Counted from the first letter of the stretch, positions 11,319 through 64,000 are shown. The stretch is DNA of 64,000 nucleotides from Pelosinus fermentans JBW45 (GCF_000271665.2 NZ_CP010978.1:4757001-4821000); one strand, 5' to 3'. Notes: generated from the sequence alone by a model not told the origin. A program made the numbers and translations.

Positions 11319-11981
11319 ATGATTAGAGTTACGAAAGATCCTGAAATACGTCAGGCTGAGCTGATGGATGCAGCGCAAGAACTATTTATTTTGCTGGGAT
11401 ATCAGCAAACTACAGTAAGTACGATTGTGAAAAAGGTGGGCGTAGCCCAAGGAACATTCTATTATTATTTTGCTTCTAAAGAAGCGATCTTAGAAGCGAT
11501 ATTTGCCCGCCATGTGACAACTATGCTGCTGGAAGTTCAGACCTTTTATTCCGACAAAAATACGGTATTAGAGAAATTACAACTATTTTTTAACCTTTTC
11601 TATAAATTATGCTACTGTGATGAACCAGGCCTAATCGGCAAGATTTTATATAAAGAGAAACAGGGTTTGTTAATTAATAAACTTTGGCGGCAAATGCTGT
11701 TCACTACGCAGCCAATCTTTAAAGGAATCCTAGAGCAAGGCAACAAAGAAGGGCTAACAAATGTCATACATATGGATGAAACATTTTCTTTTTTTGCTGG
11801 CATTATGGCTGCCTTACTGGAAGCAAGCTCGCCTTTAGAGTTTGATCGTGAAGTAGATCCTATCATCGTAGCGAATAAATTAGAAATTGCCGGAAAATTA
11901 ATTGAAAATTTATTAGGAGCACCTGTCGGCAGCATTCACTTAGACCCATTGGATAGTAAACACTGTCTACAGCAGCTGTAA
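11319..11981 (+). CDS. TetR-family regulator of the uptake/efflux locus
   Basis: Cytoplasmic one-component repressor, 220 residues. The N-terminal HTH (about 12-58) shows the family pattern: AAQELFILLGYQQTTVSTIVKKVGVAQGTFYYYFASKEAILEAIF. The C-terminal helical domain presumably binds the inducer. The start is ATG 11319-11321 behind GAGGGG; a longer start would place the operator inside the coding region. Palindromes in its own promoter and upstream of the receptor and the MFS exporter support a local regulon. The ligand is not deducible. Confidence 0.9.
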   Translation: MIRVTKDPEIRQAELMDAAQELFILLGYQQTTVSTIVKKVGVAQGTFYYYFASKEAILEAIFARHVTTMLLEVQTFYSDKNTVLEKLQLFFNLFYKLCYCDEPGLIGKILYKEKQGLLINKLWRQMLFTTQPIFKGILEQGNKEGLTNVIHMDETFSFFAGIMAALLEASSPLEFDREVDPIIVANKLEIAGKLIENLLGAPVGSIHLDPLDSKHCLQQL

Positions 11982-12016
11982 TATGGTGCTGCATCTTTTA
12001 CATGGTCAACAAATAG

Positions 12017-12063
12017 AAAGTCCCTGCTATATTCCATAAACAGAATATAGCAGGGACTTTTAT
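12017..12063. terminator. Bidirectional terminator between tetR and the carrier
   Basis: AAAGTCCCTGCTATATTC pairs perfectly with GAATATAGCAGGGACTTT around CATAAACA, with T-rich exits on both strands between converging genes. Confidence 0.9.
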
Positions 12064-12076
12064 TATGAATACTGTC

Positions 12077-13375
12077 TTATATCATAACGGAGATTATGAT
12101 ACTTACAATTGCAGCAGCTCCAAGACACATCGGAACTGCTTTGAACAACAAATTGGAAAATAAGCTGTTACGATCCTCTTCATTGGTGCATGAGCCTAAT
12201 AACAGGCTGCCGCCGGAAGAGAAGGGAGAAATCGCAGTCGCTTGAGCACCAATAACAACACTAATGAACAGAACCATTGGGTTAATGCCCGTTGCAGCTA
12301 CAATAGAAGGAATAATGGGAAATAAAGCTGGAGTAACCACTCCTAGTGTACTACTAAAAAATGACATAATTCCACCAACAATGCTTAGTGCAATAGGCAC
12401 CAGGAAAGCAGGCATATTACCTCCAATCCATTTTGCAAGAAGTTGAATAGTTCCGGCTTTGATCGCCACTGAAATCAGCATTCCAACACCACAAATCATA
12501 ATCAGAGTACTCCATGGAACCTTAGCAACAACCTTTTTCTCATCAGCAAGCTTAAGCATAAGTGCCACTACAGAAAACACGATGGAAATAAGTCCAATGT
12601 CAATTTTAGAATTAATAAAGGTAATCGTCTTGTTAAGAGGAAGGATTATATGCAGAACAGGAGCAGCCAGTACAATAGCCATCATCAAAATAATAAGATA
12701 TAAGGTTGTCTTTTGCTTCTGATCAAAAGGCTCTGGTTTTTCAATATTCAAGTTTCTACTAAGTGTCTTTTTCGTATTGGTGAATATTAGTAGTCCGGAA
12801 ATAACCAGAATGGGAATAATCATAGTGCTTATAAATATGGCAGTTGTATAGCCAAAAGCTATTTCAGCAGGATAACCGGCAGATTCAATTAAGCTTTTAA
12901 AGATAATGCCGCTTTGACTGGTCATGAAGTTAGCCCCTGCCAGTGCACCATAGTTTGCGGCCACCGCGCCGATCATTTTGCTCATGCCGGTCTTTTCACA
13001 CAGCAGAAGTGTAATGGGGGCCATGAAAGCCAAGACTGTAAAAAAGCCTGCACCTAAGCTAGCAATCAGTACTGCTGCAAAGAAAATAACAAATGGAAGT
13101 ATCCGTGGAACTTTGCGACAACTATACAATAGATACGTAGCTAGTTTCTCCAATGTGCCATTTACAAGAGCAAAGTTATAGAAAAGAGAAACTGCAAAAA
13201 TAACAAAGAAGATGCTCATTGGCCACATACTTATGACTTCACTGGTCTTTAGGTTTAAAAAGAAGCACCCGATAATGTACGCAAAGGAAATAGCAAAAAA
13301 TCCGGTATTAATCTTAGTCTTATAACCTAGGGCAATCGAAATTGCAATTGCAAGCACTACAATAAAGCTAATCAT
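12077..13375 (-). CDS. Dicarboxylate-type carrier (ion transporter superfamily, MatC-like)
   Basis: Inner-membrane secondary carrier, 432 residues, 11-12 TM segments, of the ArsB/NhaD (ion transporter) superfamily and closest in feel to MatC/C4-dicarboxylate carriers. Two related halves each carry a re-entrant-type loop (GANFMTSQSGIIFKS in the first half, QATAISPFSSGGSLLLG in the second). It is the last gene of the citrate-lyase operon, 20 nt after the DUF6282-like gene, so it probably imports the substrate handled by the hydratase and lyase (citrate, aconitate, citramalate or mesaconate). The substrate is inference. Confidence 0.75.
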   Translation of the reverse strand: MISFIVVLAIAISIALGYKTKINTGFFAISFAYIIGCFFLNLKTSEVISMWPMSIFFVIFAVSLFYNFALVNGTLEKLATYLLYSCRKVPRILPFVIFFAAVLIASLGAGFFTVLAFMAPITLLLCEKTGMSKMIGAVAANYGALAGANFMTSQSGIIFKSLIESAGYPAEIAFGYTTAIFISTMIIPILVISGLLIFTNTKKTLSRNLNIEKPEPFDQKQKTTLYLIILMMAIVLAAPVLHIILPLNKTITFINSKIDIGLISIVFSVVALMLKLADEKKVVAKVPWSTLIMICGVGMLISVAIKAGTIQLLAKWIGGNMPAFLVPIALSIVGGIMSFFSSTLGVVTPALFPIIPSIVAATGINPMVLFISVVIGAQATAISPFSSGGSLLLGSCTNEEDRNSLFSNLLFKAVPMCLGAAAIVSIIISVMI

Positions 13376-49715: not shown

Positions 49716-51202
49716 CTAGTTAGATGGTATAACATGTATCTCCTTTATCCATTCTAATGACCAATTCTTGGGTAATAGTACTTGATCTACTTGTCCTTCC
49801 AATTTAGCTCCAGATTTGGTGTATTGTTCAGCTACCTTACCTATATTCAATATTTGTCCTTTAGGTATTATAATCACAGCTTCATACATTCTTGTATTTC
49901 CCCATACTGGCAACAATGCAGCATCAATTTTTGCTTGTATTCTATTGCTTGTTCGCAATGTTGTCGCAAAAGCCCACCCGCATCAGCTCTGCCACCAAAC
50001 GTACGGTATAAAGTAACATTTTCATTAGTTACAACTGTTCTGTAGTTTCCATCTGTAAAAGATTTGGCTATCCCTTCTGCCAAATCCTCTTTTTTAATTC
50101 CCTTAACTTTGCCTTCAATCCTGGTTAAGTATTTAGCATTACCAAGCCCCTCAGAAATCTTACCTATTCCCCTGAGCGACCTAAGCATACTAACTCCTTC
50201 TCCGATGACTGCGCCTCCTGGAATAACTACTAAAGAATCCAAGAAGTCCCCAAATGGCTGGTTCCTTTCTTGTCGCCTCTTCTCACTATATTCTCGTTGA
50301 GATGCAGCTTCCCTTTTTAATTTTTCAAAAAAATTATCTATTCCCTCAAAGTACTTACTTCTGCCTTCCATCCTTTGTACTTCAGTCTGAGTATATGTTC
50401 CTGCATTGCTAACTTCCACTAAAGTGTAACAATCTCTTCCACAGAAACCGACAAATTCATAAGATTTCGATTGAACAAAATCTTCAATCAGTTTTAAGTA
50501 TATTAATAATATCCCCAAATTTCCTGATGAAAAAAGTTGCCAATAACTTTTTTCTAATTCTGTAGAATATTTATTTTTCAGACGAATACTGCGCAAATAT
50601 TGGGCAAATTCGATTTGATTTTGCGTTAGTAAATAATCTTCAGAAGGTGTTAACCTAGCTAAATTTGTTAAGTCGACATCAATACCCATTTTCCCTGGAA
50701 CGGCAATATCAGTAGTTATGTTATCTCCAGTGTGAGATAGCTGCATATCTTGGCAAATAAAGTCATTCCATATTCGGCTACTAGCTTTTCCATTAGTTGT
50801 AACAATTAATTCAAATGGTACATTTAATCCAACTTTAAGAAGCATTAGCTTTATAACATCTTTTGGCAAATACATATCTGAAATCAAGATATCACCAGGT
50901 TTCACCTTTTTAATATTCTCGACAATTGGTATTGCTTGTTCTATTTCTGTATTTATTTCAAGTTCCTTTAACCTAGCTCCAATAGAAGGATCAACTTTGT
51001 AACTGCTAATTATTTCTTCGTAAATATCATCTATGGTATAAGTTTCACACTTTCTTGCTGCGACACATTGTTCTGATTGAATACGGGCTTTTGCGAATCC
51101 CGTCATTCTAGTCTCTTGTTCTACTATATGGAAAATACCGTAGGGATGTATGCATCGTCTAGCAATCAAAGTATCAAATACATCCCATGAATGATTTATC
51201 AT
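49716..51202 (-). pseudogene. HAD-domain / polymorphic-toxin-like fusion, frameshifted near its end
   Basis: Residues 1-265 are a COG5610-like HAD domain: motif I DVFDTL (D7, D10), motif II ISDMYL (S108), motif IV TGDNITTD (D160, D165), then the FCGRDCYTL block. From about 268 a charged linker (KREAASQREYSEKRRQERN), a glycine-rich hydrophobic segment and a toxin-like tail follow. The frame breaks near 49995 in GGTGGGCTTTT: one extra G restores ADAGG-AFATTLRTSNRIQ and continues to 49716 with LLPVWGNTRMYEA, IIIPKGQILNIGK and VDQVLLPKNW, a pattern I associate with secreted-toxin C-termini. The start is ATG 51200-51202 behind GGAGGAGGGG. AT-rich; lies between two M copies. Confidence 0.65.
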
Positions 51203-51456
51203 GTATATATCCCCTCCTCCTGGGACAATAAACTTGTCCCCACGTCGCCATAAACCGTATTGCGGTAAAAATCCCGCAAGGCCGCGTAATCGGCCGCCGG
51301 CAGAGCCGTCCATTTCAGAGTAAAGATTTGGGGTAACCGGGTAAACTTGACCCGGGAAATGACCAGCCCGTTTTCCATTTCAGATTGCAGCGAGGGGTCT
51401 TTGATTTTGGTGGTAAACGGATATACTGGCTGTTGAATATTTGGAAATTGTGCCAT
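51199..51456 (-). pseudogene. Second M-like tail gene copy, 3' truncated
   Basis: About 85% identical by eye to the N-terminal part of the M-like gene at 48878-49239, but intact across the position where that copy is frameshifted (FTLKWTALPAADYAALRD). Homology stops at about 51243 after YRNTVYGD; the last 14 codons are foreign and include the RBS of the HAD/toxin gene. It marks the upstream edge of the cassette. Confidence 0.8.
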
Positions 51457-57574: not shown

Positions 57575-57594
57575 AAAATATTAAAGTTTGTGAG

Positions 57595-57622
57595 AAAAGC
57601 ACCCTTCAGGGTGCTTTCTTAT
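57595..57622 (+). terminator. Terminator of the 114-aa gene
   Basis: AAAGCACCC pairs with GGGTGCTTT around a 4-nt loop, then CTTATTG. Confidence 0.85.
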
Positions 57623-57653: not shown

Positions 57654-58466
57654 TTACGCAAAATAGGCTTTTAATTCTTTTAGTGAATCAAATATTAAAG
57701 TTGGATGTATCTCAGACTTCTGCAAATCTCCTAACTTAGTTTCACCTGATAAAACCAGAATCGTCACCAAGTCATTTCCTTTGCCAAGTGCAATATCCGT
57801 ATATAATCGATCGCCAACCACAGCAATTTCCTCTTCTTTGAAACCTGTATCTTTCAAAATATACTGCAAGGTATGAGTTGTCGGCTTACCAAAGTATTCT
57901 GGTGAAATCCCAGTAGAAGCTGTAATCATGGCGCATATGGACCCGCAATCGGGAATAAAGCCATCCTCCGTTGGACAATTAAAATCAGGATGAACCCCTA
58001 AGAAAATCGCCCCTGCGCGAATAAACTTACAAGCCTTGGATACCTTCTCATAAGCTAAGGTTGTATCAAAACCTACAACTACTACATCCGGGTCTTCTTC
58101 TACTAAATGTATATTGGAATTTTGAAAGTCACTTGTTAAATATTCATTTCCCAATAGAAATACTTTTTTCCCTGGCATTGCTTCTTGCAGATGACGGATA
58201 ATGACATGATTTGAAATCAACATCGCATTCTCTTTTACATCATAGCCCATATGATGAATTTTATTGATATAGAACTTTGCATTTTGTGAAGAATTATTGG
58301 TAAAAAATTTAAAAGCAATCTTATTTTTTTCTAGTGTTTCTAAGAATTCAATGGCACCATCTAATAATTTACCACCTAAATATACCGTTCCGTCTAAATC
58401 CAGAATAAAGCATTTTACCTTATGTAAAATATCTTGTGCTTTGCCTTTCATTACCTTTCCATTCAT
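57654..58466 (-). CDS. HAD-IIA family phosphatase (AraL/NagD-like)
   Basis: Cytoplasmic sugar/polyol phosphatase, 270 residues. HAD motif I FILDLDGTVYLG at 20-31 (nucleophile Asp22), motif II FFTNNSS near 54, a C2a cap, motif III Lys in FGKPTTHTLQ near 192, and motif IV VVGDRLYTDIALG near 217. In Bacillus the homologous AraL stands next to AraM, as here. It starts 1 nt from the stop of the dehydrogenase. It could remove the phosphate from a PTS-derived or G1P-derived intermediate. Confidence 0.88.
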   Translation of the reverse strand: MNGKVMKGKAQDILHKVKCFILDLDGTVYLGGKLLDGAIEFLETLEKNKIAFKFFTNNSSQNAKFYINKIHHMGYDVKENAMLISNHVIIRHLQEAMPGKKVFLLGNEYLTSDFQNSNIHLVEEDPDVVVVGFDTTLAYEKVSKACKFIRAGAIFLGVHPDFNCPTEDGFIPDCGSICAMITASTGISPEYFGKPTTHTLQYILKDTGFKEEEIAVVGDRLYTDIALGKGNDLVTILVLSGETKLGDLQKSEIHPTLIFDSLKELKAYFA

Positions 58467-59846
58467 TTATACTTCTTCCTTCTTTAAGTAATCATAAACC
58501 TCATGAGCAAATTCCTCTAAAAGTCCAAGGTCAGATAAGAAATTAAGGATGGTATATCTTGTCCGAACTTCTTTCGCCATCAGGATACCATTGATGACAT
58601 GTTGTTCATCAATGCCAACTTCCCTGGGACGACTTGCTCCTCCAGCATGTTTAAGGATGGCTGTAATCTCTCTTGCCGAAGGTACAGTTTTAGCAATATC
58701 GATAATTTCATTCATATTTTCTTGAATGGTATGAATCCTTGCAATTTTCTTGGCTATAGAGTTTCGTTGCTCTTTTTCATTGATATGAATAATTTCCTGG
58801 GCAGCTTTTTGATAGAGTCTTTCAACACTTTTTTTCCATTGATCCTGATCAAATGAATTGGCTTTGCTAATAGCGTCGTCAAAATCAATCGTTGATTGGG
58901 CTAATAGTTCACTTAACTTTGCCGTAATTACGGCAGCGATCCCTACCTTTGTGCCATGGAGTACAGCCTTCTTATGTTCAAATAAAAACATCATCTCCCA
59001 ATAATGGGCTAAATGATGCTCTGAACCGGATGCGGGTCTTGAATTGCCGACAAAGCTCATGGCAATCCCCGTCATTACCAGGGCTTCCATCAAGTTTTTA
59101 ATAGCACCTTCGTCCCTGCTTTTTATTCCTTCTACGTTATTGATACATTTTGTCATAGATTCTGTAACCATTTTTACGACTACATCGCAATAATATTCAC
59201 CATTAATCACTTTACCCAATTTCCAATCGGTTAAAGCTGAATATTTTCCAACAATATCACCAAAACCTGCAATAATCATATTCATGGGTGCTTGCTTTAA
59301 TATAGTAATATCTCCAATGATGGCTTTGGGGCAGACGCATTCAAAGGAGGTTTTAAGATTATCAACAATTAAGGCGGCGCCAGTGGAAGCAAAGCCATCC
59401 ATGGAGGGGGCCGTTGCTACAATAATAGTTGGAATGCTGATTTTGTGACTGACAAACTTAGCTAAATCATTGAGTGTACCTGTGCCAATGGTAACAATTA
59501 CATCTGTATCCTTTTCCACTTGAATCAATAATGCGCCTACGGTTGCTTCGTCAGGAACCAGTTCTCCCTCTCCTTGAAATACAAATTTTTTGTATGCAAA
59601 GTTTGCTTGCCTTAAGACTGCTTCTACCTGCTTGCCAGCGACTTCATCAGTGTGAAGATCAGCAATGACTAATGCTTTTTTATATTGAAATTGTCTTAAA
59701 CATTCAGGCAGTTTATCAATCCCATCCTTTTCGATTAGGATACGATCAATCGCAACGCGATGAGCTTCTTTGCATTCGCAATGTATGTCATTGCCTAAAA
59801 AATCTTCTATTTCTAAACGCTCAATCCTATCTAGTGTTATATTCAT
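58467..59846 (-). CDS. Glycerol-1-phosphate dehydrogenase, AraM/EgsA-like
   Basis: NAD(P)-dependent, Zn/Ni-dependent enzyme that interconverts dihydroxyacetone phosphate and sn-glycerol-1-phosphate; 459 residues, longer than AraM (about 394). Core: TIGTGTLNDLAKFVSHKISIPTIIVATAPSMDGFAS near 130-165 and metal ligands in DIVGKYSALTDW, SGSEHHLAHYWE and HGTKVGIA. The start is ATG 59844-59846 behind AGGGAG; 25 upstream codons lie in a repeat flank and are not family-like. It follows the EIID gene after a 138-nt gap carrying repeat copy 4. Confidence 0.87.
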   Translation of the reverse strand: MNITLDRIERLEIEDFLGNDIHCECKEAHRVAIDRILIEKDGIDKLPECLRQFQYKKALVIADLHTDEVAGKQVEAVLRQANFAYKKFVFQGEGELVPDEATVGALLIQVEKDTDVIVTIGTGTLNDLAKFVSHKISIPTIIVATAPSMDGFASTGAALIVDNLKTSFECVCPKAIIGDITILKQAPMNMIIAGFGDIVGKYSALTDWKLGKVINGEYYCDVVVKMVTESMTKCINNVEGIKSRDEGAIKNLMEALVMTGIAMSFVGNSRPASGSEHHLAHYWEMMFLFEHKKAVLHGTKVGIAAVITAKLSELLAQSTIDFDDAISKANSFDQDQWKKSVERLYQKAAQEIIHINEKEQRNSIAKKIARIHTIQENMNEIIDIAKTVPSAREITAILKHAGGASRPREVGIDEQHVINGILMAKEVRTRYTILNFLSDLGLLEEFAHEVYDYLKKEEV

Positions 59847-59897
59847 CTTTGCTGCTCCCTTATCACCAAATTTCCTTTTAAAACATATAAACGAATC

Positions 59898-59956
59898 GAA
59901 CCACAAAGACACAAAGTACACAAAGGGTTCTATTTATATTTGTACCTTTGTGGTTG
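59898..59956. repeat. Dispersed repeat copy 4 within the PTS operon
   Basis: GAACCACAAAGACACAAAG with ACACAAAGGGTTC following, then an inverted ACCTTTGTGGTT at about 59944-59955, so the RNA can fold into a hairpin between the EIID and dehydrogenase genes. It shares the AAACATATAAACGAATC flank with other copies. Confidence 0.85.
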
Positions 59957-59984
59957 ATAAATTCTATAAGAAACATTATAGCTC

Positions 59985-60800
59985 TTAAAATATACCTAAA
60001 ATTCCTGTAACAGCACCTAAGGCTATTAAGATACCCATTAGCTTAATAGGAGAAACGCCCTTTTTGACCATCGAAAGAACAATTAAGGTTAACGCCAGCG
60101 GGATCAATCCTGGCATGAGTTTATCAAGTAAATCGGTCTGTAAGTTAAATTTCACTTGACCTACATCGAAACTAATTAAGGTTTGCAGGGGAATAAACCG
60201 ACCTACCAGCCCTCCCATGACAAGAGTTCCTAAAATCGATGCACCTTCAATTACTTTATTAATCATACCGCCTTCTAAAATTTGCTCCACTGCCTTCTTG
60301 CCATAGGTATAGCCATTCATCCACATGGTAAGTTGAATGGTTGTCATAATAGCGAATTGAGCAATTAAGAAAATGATGGGACCTGCAAGATTTTGATTAT
60401 TGGTAATGCCAATACAGATCGCAAGCATAATGGGAGTAATAATTCCTTGCGTTAATGTATCCCCAATACCTGCTAAAGGTCCCATTAAACCAGTTTTAAT
60501 CCCATTGAAAGCTCCATCAGTAATAGGCTTGCCATTGGCTTTTTCCTCTTCCATGGCAATCGTAATCCCATGAATCACAGCGCCGCATATTGGCTCTGTA
60601 TTGAAAAAGGATAAATGCCGCTGTACTGCTGCCTTGGCATCTTCTTTATCAGGATATAGTTTTTCAATAACAGGCAGCATGGAATGGGCAAATGCAGTAG
60701 CTTGCATTCTTTCATAATTATAGTTGGATTGGGCAAACATATACCATCGAAACCAAGATTTAAGCACATCATTCTTCGTTAATGTCTTTGCAGTTTGCAT
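59985..60800 (-). CDS. Mannose-family PTS EIID component
   Basis: Membrane component of a mannose/fructose/sorbose-family PTS, 271 residues. Landmarks: NYERMQATAFAHSMLPVIEKLY near 28, FFNTEPICGAVIHGITIAMEE near 70 and the GLMGPLAGIGDTLTQGIITPIMLAI segment near 108, with C-terminal TM helices. With EIIC it forms the translocation channel. GGAGGT precedes the ATG. Confidence 0.92.
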   Translation of the reverse strand: MQTAKTLTKNDVLKSWFRWYMFAQSNYNYERMQATAFAHSMLPVIEKLYPDKEDAKAAVQRHLSFFNTEPICGAVIHGITIAMEEEKANGKPITDGAFNGIKTGLMGPLAGIGDTLTQGIITPIMLAICIGITNNQNLAGPIIFLIAQFAIMTTIQLTMWMNGYTYGKKAVEQILEGGMINKVIEGASILGTLVMGGLVGRFIPLQTLISFDVGQVKFNLQTDLLDKLMPGLIPLALTLIVLSMVKKGVSPIKLMGILIALGAVTGILGIF

Positions 60801-60821
60801 GCTAACTTACCTCCTTCAAAT

Positions 60822-61583
60822 TTATACGTTGACATCTTTTCTACTGGAATAGCGTATGGAAGTTACTGTCAGGGCTAACACAACACCCATAATGGCAATA
60901 ATCAATATGTCCTGTTTGAAATATACGGATAAAATAACACCTAAGACAAAAAATGGCATGGTAAAGGAATTGCCAATTAATTTCAAATTCATTGCGATAC
61001 CCAGAGCAGGCAGCATGGCACCAATTACCGTAAACACATGCAGTACGCTAGGGCTCATCACTCGCAGCATTCCTGATACAGCATCCGGTCCATAGAATAC
61101 TACCAAGGTGGCAGGAATAAAACTAACTAAGAATAGCAAAATCTGAGGAGGAAATACATTGATAAAGGCTAACCGCCTTAAATTGCCTTTTTCAACCTCT
61201 TTATCCGCCCAATGAACAAAAAAGGAATTCACCGTCATTTTAGCAATCCAGAGCACCGTTGCAATGGTTCCTAAGGGTACTGATATCGCCATGGCAGTGG
61301 CTACATCCAGGTTAGAAACTAAAGCAAGAGCCGTTCCAACGTATCCTGCAAAGGAAGGGTCACCCATTTGGGCACCACCGGCTGAAATAAAACCCAAATA
61401 AATAACATTGATGCCCGCACCAATTAATGCTCCTTCCAAGGGCTGCCCTAAAATGATACCGGTAATAAATCCAGCTACCAGCGGTCGATTAAAGGTAAAG
61501 AAACCAACATAGGTAAACCAGGGACTCCATGAAAGATAATAAAAGACACCGATTAACGCAGCCTGTAAAAAAGAGATGTGCAT
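60822..61583 (-). CDS. Mannose-family PTS EIIC component
   Basis: Membrane permease component, 253 residues, six or more TM segments. It carries the family motif GAGINVIYLGFISAGGAQMGDPSFAGYVGTALAL near 55-85 and an N-terminal NRPLVAGFITGIILG block. It lies 21 nt before EIID; GGAGG stands ahead of the ATG. Confidence 0.92.
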   Translation of the reverse strand: MHISFLQAALIGVFYYLSWSPWFTYVGFFTFNRPLVAGFITGIILGQPLEGALIGAGINVIYLGFISAGGAQMGDPSFAGYVGTALALVSNLDVATAMAISVPLGTIATVLWIAKMTVNSFFVHWADKEVEKGNLRRLAFINVFPPQILLFLVSFIPATLVVFYGPDAVSGMLRVMSPSVLHVFTVIGAMLPALGIAMNLKLIGNSFTMPFFVLGVILSVYFKQDILIIAIMGVVLALTVTSIRYSSRKDVNV

Positions 61584-61684
61584 ACTTTTTTCCTCCTTTA
61601 TTTTGTGTTACTCTCGCCAAAATGATCCTATAGACGTAAACAGTCAAAGGATGAGTATAAGATAAGCATCATATACTTTGAAGA

Positions 61685-62158
61685 TTAAATCATAGTTGCC
61701 ATTGGCATTTTATTTGCATCAGGAACAATTTGTACAAAAACATCCACGCCAAGAGTCAATAGTTCTTTAAATATCGCTTTTTCTTCTGCCGATATCGAAA
61801 TATTTCTGTAGAGCTGCTTTCTGCCCTGTGTTGCTCCCATACCGCCTAGATTTAAGTCGGCAATGTTAACTCCAGCCTTTATAAGACCAAGTACGGTTTT
61901 GGGCGTCTTAACTAAAATAATAACTCTTTCGCCAGTATCTTCTCCTGCTAGTGTTACAGCGGCATCCTGAGTATTAAAAATATCTACTTTTATAGAAGAT
62001 GGTGCCGCCATCTTTAACACTTTTACCATAAAAGAATCTTCGGCTACCTCATCATCCACGACAATAATTCGATCTGCTTTGGTGATTTTTGTCCAGGCTG
62101 TAATCACCTGACCATGTATTAATCGGTCATCAATTCGAGTCAGAACAATATGTAACAT
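61685..62158 (-). CDS. Mannose-family PTS EIIB component
   Basis: Cytoplasmic phosphotransferase, 157 residues. The phosphorylated His is in LTRIDDRLIHGQVITAW (about residue 15), with IIVVDDEVAED near 31 and NLGGMGATQGRKQL near 105. The start is ATG 62156-62158, 8 nt after GAGG; an ATG three codons upstream overlaps the RBS. Confidence 0.92.
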   Translation of the reverse strand: MLHIVLTRIDDRLIHGQVITAWTKITKADRIIVVDDEVAEDSFMVKVLKMAAPSSIKVDIFNTQDAAVTLAGEDTGERVIILVKTPKTVLGLIKAGVNIADLNLGGMGATQGRKQLYRNISISAEEKAIFKELLTLGVDVFVQIVPDANKMPMATMI

Positions 62159-62173
62159 AACATCCACCTCTTC

Positions 62174-62596
62174 TTACTTATTAGTTTCATCAAAACGTTC
62201 AATTTCTTTAAAAAGTTCTCTGATTCCCGTGATACCTGTCTGGATACATACATTCGTTAACTCATCTAATCCATAGGACTCTCTCATACTAAAAGCCTCA
62301 ATGATCATTGGTAAACTGAAACCAGCAATACACCTAAAGTTACTGGTAATGGTGCTGCTCGCTTTGGCAGTATTGTTATAGGGACTCGCGCCAAATAAAT
62401 CGGCAAATACCAGCACCCCCATTCCTGTATCTAATGCTTGGATGGCTGCATTGACCTTCTCGCAAAACGCTTCAATACTATCTCCGCGATAACATCCCAG
62501 CGCCAATGCCTTTTCCTGCTTCCCCAAAATTAGTTGAGCAGTTTGTAAAGCTGCTTCACCAAAATTTTCATGGGTTACTACTAAAATTCCAATCAT
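62174..62596 (-). CDS. Mannose-family PTS EIIA component
   Basis: Cytoplasmic EIIA(Man)-fold protein, 140 residues. The active His is in ILVVTHENFGEAAL (residue 9-10), with VLVFADLFGASPYNNTAK near 62-79 as the conserved Asp loop. First gene of the operon EIIA-EIIB-EIIC-EIID-G1PDH-phosphatase; the sigma-54 promoter lies 34 nt upstream. GGAGGA precedes the ATG. Confidence 0.92.
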   Translation of the reverse strand: MIGILVVTHENFGEAALQTAQLILGKQEKALALGCYRGDSIEAFCEKVNAAIQALDTGMGVLVFADLFGASPYNNTAKASSTITSNFRCIAGFSLPMIIEAFSMRESYGLDELTNVCIQTGITGIRELFKEIERFDETNK

Positions 62597-62629
62597 TAAA
62601 ATCCTCCTTTCTTTGTACTAAGTATTATT

Positions 62630-62644
62630 GCAACTCCTATGCCA
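62630..62644 (-). promoter_or_regulatory. Sigma-54 promoter of the PTS operon
   Basis: On the minus strand TGGCATAGGAGTTGC (then AATA): GG/GC spacing as in the -24/-12 consensus. The LevR-type activator upstream is exactly the class that needs such a promoter. Confidence 0.88.
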
Positions 62645-62648
62645 ACTA

Positions 62649-62821
62649 TGTGTCTCATTACCTGCCAGTCAGATGACAAACAACCTATAGTCTAGGATAT
62701 AAAGGCAGAGTTGCTACATAAATTAAAATTTAACCTTTGGGCGCATTCCCTTTTTAAGAATGTGTCTTAAAATGTGTCTTAGTCATATTTCATAGAATGT
62801 GTCTCAAAATCCAAGACACAT
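62649..62821. promoter_or_regulatory. Repeated TGTGTCT activator sites
   Basis: TGTGTCTTA at 62761-62769 and 62773-62781, TGTGTCTCA at 62798-62806 and 62649-62657, and the inverse AGACACA at 62814-62820. Most lie 120-190 bp upstream of the sigma-54 promoter, the normal place for LevR/ManR enhancer sites. Confidence 0.7.
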
Positions 62822-62869: not shown

Positions 62870-62930
62870 GAACCACAAAGACGCAAAGGACACAAAGGGT
62901 TTTATCAGTGGCATTGTGCCTTTGTGGTTC
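62870..62930. repeat. Dispersed repeat copy 5 with inverted partner
   Basis: GAACCACAAAGACGCAAAGG then ACACAAAGGGTT, followed by an inverse CTTTGTGGTTC ending at 62930, so it can form a hairpin. It is in the gap between the activator gene and the PTS operon. The remainder of 62931-63097 shows no gene. Confidence 0.85.
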
Positions 62931-63147: not shown

Positions 63148-64000
63148 TCAGTTCGATAGGATATTGAAATGCCCATCCATCATTTCAACGACATAGGCTA
63201 ATTCAGTATTGGGAATCTCAATGCCAAATGCCTCTTCCACGATAATGAACGTATCTTTAATCGTCTTGAAAAGAGATTCCTTGGACTCCTTAATATGCAA
63301 GAAATTTGTATAAGGTAAGGGTTCATTTCTTATGATTCTTTCAATCATGCAAGAACAATGAAATAAGAATTTGATCCTGATGCTTTCATCAATAACTCCA
63401 TTACAGGTATCTGCAACCTTTTCTAATACTTCATTGAGTAATCTTGATGCTTTCCCTACGTTTAAGAACGTGAGAATTTCTTCTAGCATAGCAATAGCAC
63501 GCTCTTGATAAATAATGGGTGAGTAACCAAATTCTACTGGTGAGTTATCCACTTTTATTCTGCCGCCAATTAACGGACTCATTGCCTTTACACTTTCCAC
63601 CAACATATCAAGACTGATATTCGGTAACATAGCTTTTCTCGCTGCTTCGATCACCATAGGGGTACTCACCATTTTAACGACTCTTGTAGGTATGCCTGTT
63701 CTTTCTGAAATGATTTCGGAAAAGGTGGTAAGAGAACCCATATCGACTAAGAGCAGCACGCCTCGTCCCTTATTGATTTTTTTCACCCTTTCAGTTGCCT
63801 TGTTCAAAATTACTTCTACCTTTTCTTCCAAAGGCATGTCTATCGCATGAATACATTCATAACCTAGAAGGGTTTGGGCTACTTGAACCATATTGGTAGC
63901 TGTAGCATACCCATGAGTGATAACTAATACCTCAATATTTTCCTCACTCTTTTTTATATGCAGGGAGTATAGCAGCATGGCGGTAAAGGCAACTTCATCA
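63148..64000 (-). CDS. LevR-like sigma-54 activator, C-terminal part (cut by window end)
   Basis: PTS-regulated enhancer-binding protein; the last 284 or so residues are visible and the frame stays open to the window edge (DEVAFTAMLLYSL). First an EIIA(Man)-like domain (VLVITHGYATATNMVQVAQTL with regulatory His, GVLLLVDMGSLTTF), then a C-terminal PRD (about 180-276 of the visible part; FLFHCSCMIERII with the conserved His). The sigma-54 AAA+ and HTH parts must lie beyond 64000. Phosphorylation of EIIA/PRD histidines would tie activity to PTS flux. It sits upstream of the PTS operon in the same direction. Confidence 0.88.
   Translation of the reverse strand, partial: DEVAFTAMLLYSLHIKKSEENIEVLVITHGYATATNMVQVAQTLLGYECIHAIDMPLEEKVEVILNKATERVKKINKGRGVLLLVDMGSLTTFSEIISERTGIPTRVVKMVSTPMVIEAARKAMLPNISLDMLVESVKAMSPLIGGRIKVDNSPVEFGYSPIIYQERAIAMLEEILTFLNVGKASRLLNEVLEKVADTCNGVIDESIRIKFLFHCSCMIERIIRNEPLPYTNFLHIKESKESLFKTIKDTFIIVEEAFGIEIPNTELAYVVEMMDGHFNILSN

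Follow-up and report, generated by a model that had tools for sequence, protein, structure and literature searches.

The window analyzed here, a stretch of 64,000 nucleotides from the single-contig, 5.38-Mb genome of Pelosinus fermentans JBW45, carries six intact genes on the minus strand between 57654 and 62596. In order, these encode EIIA of the mannose family (62174–62596; EIIA-man, Pfam E = 2e-24), EIIB of the mannose/sorbose family (61685–62158; PTSIIB_sorb, E = 5e-49), EIIC of the mannose/sorbose family (60822–61583; EII-Sor, E = 2e-65), EIID of the mannose family (59985–60800; EIID-AGA, E = 3e-93), an AraM-type dehydrogenase of the glycerol-1-phosphate dehydrogenase family (58467–59846; Fe-ADH_2, E = 2e-32) and a HAD-IIA phosphatase (57654–58466; Pfam Hydrolase_6 and Hydrolase_like). 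All four transporter subunits score above the Pfam cut-offs, which places the PTS in the mannose family. Histidines read by eye from the translations, H9 of EIIA (VVTHENF) and H15 of EIIB (RLIHGQV), are the predicted sites of phosphorylation. The starts of EIIB and AraM were corrected, ATG codons at 62158 and 59846 being preferred, each with a Shine–Dalgarno-like sequence. The intergenic gaps from EIIA to HAD are 15, 101, 21, 138 and 0 bp, such that the end of AraM directly abuts the HAD start codon. Sequence and folding predict a terminator, a hairpin with a T-run, 3' of HAD (57594–57617, minus strand). A preliminary description of this DNA had reported the six genes as an operon, and they are all there, undamaged and with the same outer limits. 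The 8 kb to the left, with an M20 peptidase, membrane proteins and a regulator, was considered and set aside as outside the operon system. At 49874–51456, reading frames on the minus strand overlap, and one of 85 aa looks phage-like on visual inspection; the region resembles prophage or recombined sequence.

Upstream of EIIA lies levR, which encodes a sigma-54-dependent, PTS-controlled activator. The window holds its 3' part (63148–64000, minus strand); the gene extends past the window end, and the full protein is 903 aa (L009:10149-12860, minus strand). Sigma-54 activator, PRD and EIIA-man domains (Pfam Sigma54_activat, PRD and EIIA-man) are combined in this one protein, as in other LevR-type regulators. 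A sigma-54 –24/–12 promoter, TTGGCATAGGAGTTGCA, is predicted 5' of EIIA (62629–62645, minus strand). The pattern is matched by 13 of 14 orthologous operons, the 14th (L148) having TTGGCACGGTTATTGCG, and it occurs three times, the operon's own copy counted, in 233 kb of two-strand sequence from the Pelosinus genome. Upstream of this promoter are palindromic GACACAT half-sites. Candidate LevR sites include a palindrome, ATGTGTCT-N9-AGACACAT (62797–62821), kept in the five Pelosinus orthologues, and two direct AAGACACA half-sites (62761–62780). Orthologous operons beyond Pelosinus have ATACACAT...ATGTGTAT-like sites abutting the –24 element. The levR gene upstream and the sigma-54 promoter before EIIA support the activator role that had been assigned to LevR.

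The 138-bp gap between EIID and AraM contains a dispersed inverted repeat, AACCACAAAG...CTTTGTGGTT (59899–59955). The genome has twelve copies with exact arms, of which two lie in or before the operon (59899–59955 and 62871–62929). Variants of the repeat sit at the same place in other Pelosinus. The repeat is missing from the EIID–AraM gap of distant orthologues, where the two genes are separated by ∼25 to 80 bp or overlap slightly. Given the 12 genome copies and the short gaps of distant orthologues, we take the repeat to be a later insertion and not an operon-splitting terminator, even though it folds well. It may still cause partial attenuation.

Orthologues of the transporter were found in 14 of 381 Negativicutes genomes (EIIC identity 80–100%). 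EIIC was used to delimit a single orthologous group; in a distant genome, G336, it is 77–81% identical, and the next nearest EIIC proteins are at most 52% identical. AraM lies directly 3' of EIID and on the same strand in 14 of 14 Negativicutes orthologues (by coordinates in G025 and G062), an adjacency that is more than chance. The EIID–AraM part of the six-gene order is kept in all 14, but HAD is often missing. Four orthologous operons (L139, L149, L150 and L170) lack HAD, and all four keep AraM, indicating that AraM is core and HAD accessory. Across the orthologous operons EIIC is at least 80% identical, whereas AraM identity falls to 39–53%. The other mannose-type PTSs of the Pelosinus genome are without AraM and without HAD. 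In Selenobaculum gbiensis (G017, L143) the order is LevR-EIIABCD-AraM-HAD-transketolase, and in Propionispira arboris (G692, L170) it is LevR-EIIABCD-AraM-RpiB-transketolase; a transketolase adjoins only these 2 of the 14 operons. Frame changes split both levR and the HAD gene (L012:4156-6914 and 11381-12192) in the draft genome of P. propionicus, through either decay or sequencing error.

The operon contains no other dehydrogenase, so AraM is the only candidate for oxidizing the imported polyol phosphate. This context supports the earlier proposal that an AraM-type enzyme oxidizes a polyol phosphate here. The AraM/EgsA fold is present, and D197, H277 and H297, which by analogy with glycerol dehydrogenase we take to be metal ligands, are invariant. 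The structural model (pLDDT 94.6) best matches B. subtilis AraM (9h4x; TM 0.87 by target, 29% identity), followed by archaeal enzymes. Against PRK00843, the NCBIfam equivalog for glycerol-1-phosphate dehydrogenase, the protein scores 215.5 bits, under the 413-bit cut-off. It carries the motif EYYC of a long AraM family, versus EPYS in B. subtilis and EKYS in M. jannaschii. AraMs fused to a glycerophosphodiester phosphodiesterase (GDPD) also carry EYYC, small changes apart. Active-site motifs gave no separation of PTS-linked from GDPD-fused AraMs, and sequence alone therefore cannot name the AraM substrate; substrates could well differ within the family. The phosphatase has all HAD-IIA motifs (DxDGT, TNNS, GKP and GDRxxTD) and scores 131.3 bits against TIGR01460, above the 100.15 cut-off.

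The main rival explanation of these genes, which we regard as unlikely, is that AraM and HAD form a module for glycerol 1-phosphate. AraM would reduce DHAP to glycerol 1-phosphate, and HAD would release glycerol, or the phosphate would go to lipids; the pair would serve as a redox valve while cells grow on the PTS substrate. The characterized AraM relatives, 9h4x (the best structural match) and 4rgq, are indeed glycerol-1-phosphate dehydrogenases, and glycerol-3-phosphate phosphatases are found among HAD-IIA members. AraM–HAD-IIA fusions of 725–740 aa exist (L027:9971-12154, L029:2202-4379, L030:2078-4255, L036:10001-12223 and, in part, L019), as do AraM–GDPD fusions (L026:6920-9097 and L065:9923-12097), the latter likely to salvage the glycerol 1-phosphate of phosphatidylglycerol or teichoic acid. 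These fusions suit glycerol 1-phosphate and, together with the characterized relatives, are counted against a role in pentitol metabolism. HAD also accompanies AraM rather than the PTS, being nearby in 27 of 47 PTS loci with AraM versus 0 of 21 without. Because HAD follows AraM in its distribution, and some bacteria have the two fused, the HAD substrate is probably the substrate or the product of AraM. Yet a two-enzyme module fits poorly with the four operons that keep AraM without HAD, and it would leave the operon with no other dehydrogenase for the imported substrate.

Further evidence against that module, and for AraM as a polyol-phosphate dehydrogenase, comes from gene replacement and gene company. 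The operon of G336 has the same PTS (EIIC 81%) but, in place of AraM, a Zn-dehydrogenase that among solved structures best matches galactitol-1-phosphate 5-dehydrogenase (E = 9e-62). Only in G336 does a Zn-type dehydrogenase lie within the operon, and an EIIC search across the taxonomic order of G336 found no second swap of this kind. The orthologous PTS operon of G336 also has IS21 genes between its EIIC and EIID genes (L171:10403-12777). Pentose-phosphate enzymes also accompany AraM: transketolase, RpiB, Rpe, AraD or transaldolase occurs within six genes in 24 of 47 PTS–AraM loci versus 2 of 21 AraM-free PTS loci (Fisher p = 0.001, with related genomes counted as independent and the control loci drawn mostly from EIIC relatives). 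Such enzymes in orthologous and paralogous operons point to a pentulose 5-phosphate as the product. The preliminary description had instead proposed that a polyol or glycoside phosphate is oxidized to dihydroxyacetone phosphate or an analogue. AraM relatives do convert glycerol 1-phosphate to DHAP and back. None of the orthologous operons, however, has a recognizable glycosidase, aldolase or glycerol enzyme, and the genes added there are transketolase and RpiB. Both that product and the glycoside substrate are left unsupported, and we find that route hardly credible.

AraM is associated with more than one class of PTS. AraM occurs three times in the Pelosinus genome, each time next to a HAD-IIA gene and with a PTS of another class: mannose in this window, glucitol in L010 and galactitol, together with AraD, in L011. 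The L011 operon (L011:6463-15900) comprises LevR, GatABC, HAD, AraM, AraD and a 2-hydroxyacid dehydrogenase, and reads as a route for L-arabitol (or ribitol) via L-ribulose 5-phosphate. Beside the glucitol PTS–AraM operon is an oxidoreductase with a DRL catalytic domain (PF21135; L010:4013-5305), seen again in L014 and L015. Other galactitol-type operons have the order GatABC-AraM-AraD-transketolase (L122 and L124) or GatABC-ZnADH-AraM with DeoC or Rpe, plus RpiB and sometimes transketolase (L123, L125, L126 and L128–L130). In loci free of PTS genes, several AraMs adjoin ribulokinase, and one such locus (L024) combines AraM with ribulokinase, RpiB and an ABC importer. In an AraM tree, made by a quick method and with several long branches, the window AraM groups with AraMs of glucitol PTSs, and within Pectinatus the mannose-PTS AraMs group with the galactitol-PTS ones. 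AraMs of two distant clades hence serve one and the same mannose-type transporter, suggesting that AraM has been exchanged between PTS types, which in turn argues for one chemistry behind all of them.

Taken together, we favor, at a probability of roughly 0.6, a PTS-dependent pentitol operon in which AraM acts as a pentitol-phosphate 2-dehydrogenase feeding the pentose phosphate pathway. We infer each reaction, and the direction and substrate of AraM, from gene context. LevR, with sigma-54, would activate the operon, and the EIIABCD complex would import a pentitol and deliver it as pentitol 5-phosphate. Oxidation at C2 by the AraM-type enzyme, with NAD(P)+, would then give a pentulose 5-phosphate; RpiB together with transketolase favors D-ribulose 5-phosphate as its most likely identity. 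That no isomerase, kinase or aldolase is present would be explained if this product enters the housekeeping pentose phosphate pathway directly. The HAD-IIA phosphatase may dephosphorylate excess intermediate. Removal of excess phosphate, proposed for AraL (PMC3207120), is the simplest plausible role by analogy; the phosphatase had previously been cast as a detoxifier, a function that is plausible only, and for an accessory gene. This arrangement is apparently an undescribed, conserved variant of PTS polyol operons. In the open-access papers searched, AraM was nowhere linked with a PTS or with polyol phosphates; the 'AraM' of PMC2996990 and PMC5507952 is an unrelated mutarotase.

The same mechanism could act on a polyol other than a pentitol, a tetritol or hexitol, but this seems quite improbable. 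RpiB-family enzymes also isomerize erythrulose 4-phosphate, the P. arboris RpiB weakly matching the model for such enzymes, and AraM is paired with a class II FBA/GatY-type aldolase in L040 and L063. However, pentoses best fit the combination of transketolase and RpiB, and S. gbiensis is negative for use of erythritol, sorbitol and dulcitol. Among pentitols, ribitol is the most likely substrate, at somewhat less than even odds, with D-arabitol or xylitol next. S. gbiensis uses adonitol and neither D- nor L-arabitol (PMC10491768). Its single AraM is located in the PTS operon, and it has two mannose-type PTSs and no glucitol PTS, besides two EIIC-GAT-family proteins; this combination makes ribitol the best guess. 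Lactobacillus casei is known to have a ribitol PTS of the mannose type (cited in PMC6717177). P. arboris argues against ribitol, being adonitol-negative and D-arabitol-positive though it carries the operon; a second AraM operon, of glucitol type (L020), is present as well. P. propionicus (on Biolog plates) and strain TM1 used neither adonitol nor D-arabitol (PMC5023247). We count these phenotypes against a pentitol substrate, a point weakened by the split levR and HAD genes of the P. propionicus draft; that just 2 of the 14 operons adjoin a transketolase also counts against it.

These data bear on how bacterial AraM is read. AraM has been taken as a bacterial glycerol-1-phosphate dehydrogenase and used in arguments on the lipid divide between archaea and bacteria (e.g. 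PMC13400652). We tentatively suggest, without placing it above even odds, that the long AraM family of Bacillota (∼450 aa, EYYC) consists largely of pentitol-phosphate dehydrogenases behind any phosphorylating importer, be it one of three PTS classes or an ABC importer plus ribulokinase, in which case bacterial AraM would in itself be no evidence for archaeal-type glycerol-1-phosphate lipids. If pentitol phosphate oxidation is the commonest AraM role in Bacillota, lipid-divide readings need checking and many bacterial AraM annotations are misleading. Propionibacterium freudenreichii has an araB-araM-araL island, and its use of adonitol and L-arabitol is unexplained (PMC4437456). AraM would then be a candidate for such unexplained pentitol use, and the puzzling araL–araM pair of arabinose operons would gain a testable function.

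Among known systems, the ribitol-5-phosphate dehydrogenase of the L. casei D-ribitol operon is reportedly of the Zn (MDR) type, and the arabitol 1-phosphate dehydrogenase of Enterococcus avium is Zn-type, not AraM-type. The L. casei operon (Bourand et al. 2013, cited in PMC6717177) similarly combines a mannose-type PTS with catabolic enzymes that take ribitol phosphate to central metabolism. The Pelosinus operon differs in its AraM-type dehydrogenase, the only one it has, and in its LevR, sigma-54 promoter and HAD-IIA phosphatase. The D-arabitol operon atlABCD of Bacillus methanolicus likewise has a PTS followed by an arabitol phosphate dehydrogenase that yields xylulose 5-phosphate, AtlD being 51% identical to the E. 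avium enzyme (PMC6685057). Thermotoga maritima araMDBW has AraM co-regulated with pentulose enzymes by AraR, but it belongs to an arabinose regulon and has no PTS (PMC3750489). In B. subtilis, AraM (9h4x) and AraL, members of the same two families, are neighbors within a pentose operon, and AraL dephosphorylates xylulose 5-phosphate at low efficiency (PMC3207120). That AraM is ∼395 aa, carries EPYS, is not linked with a PTS and is proposed to act on glycerol 1-phosphate, whereas the Pelosinus AraM is 459 aa and carries EYYC.
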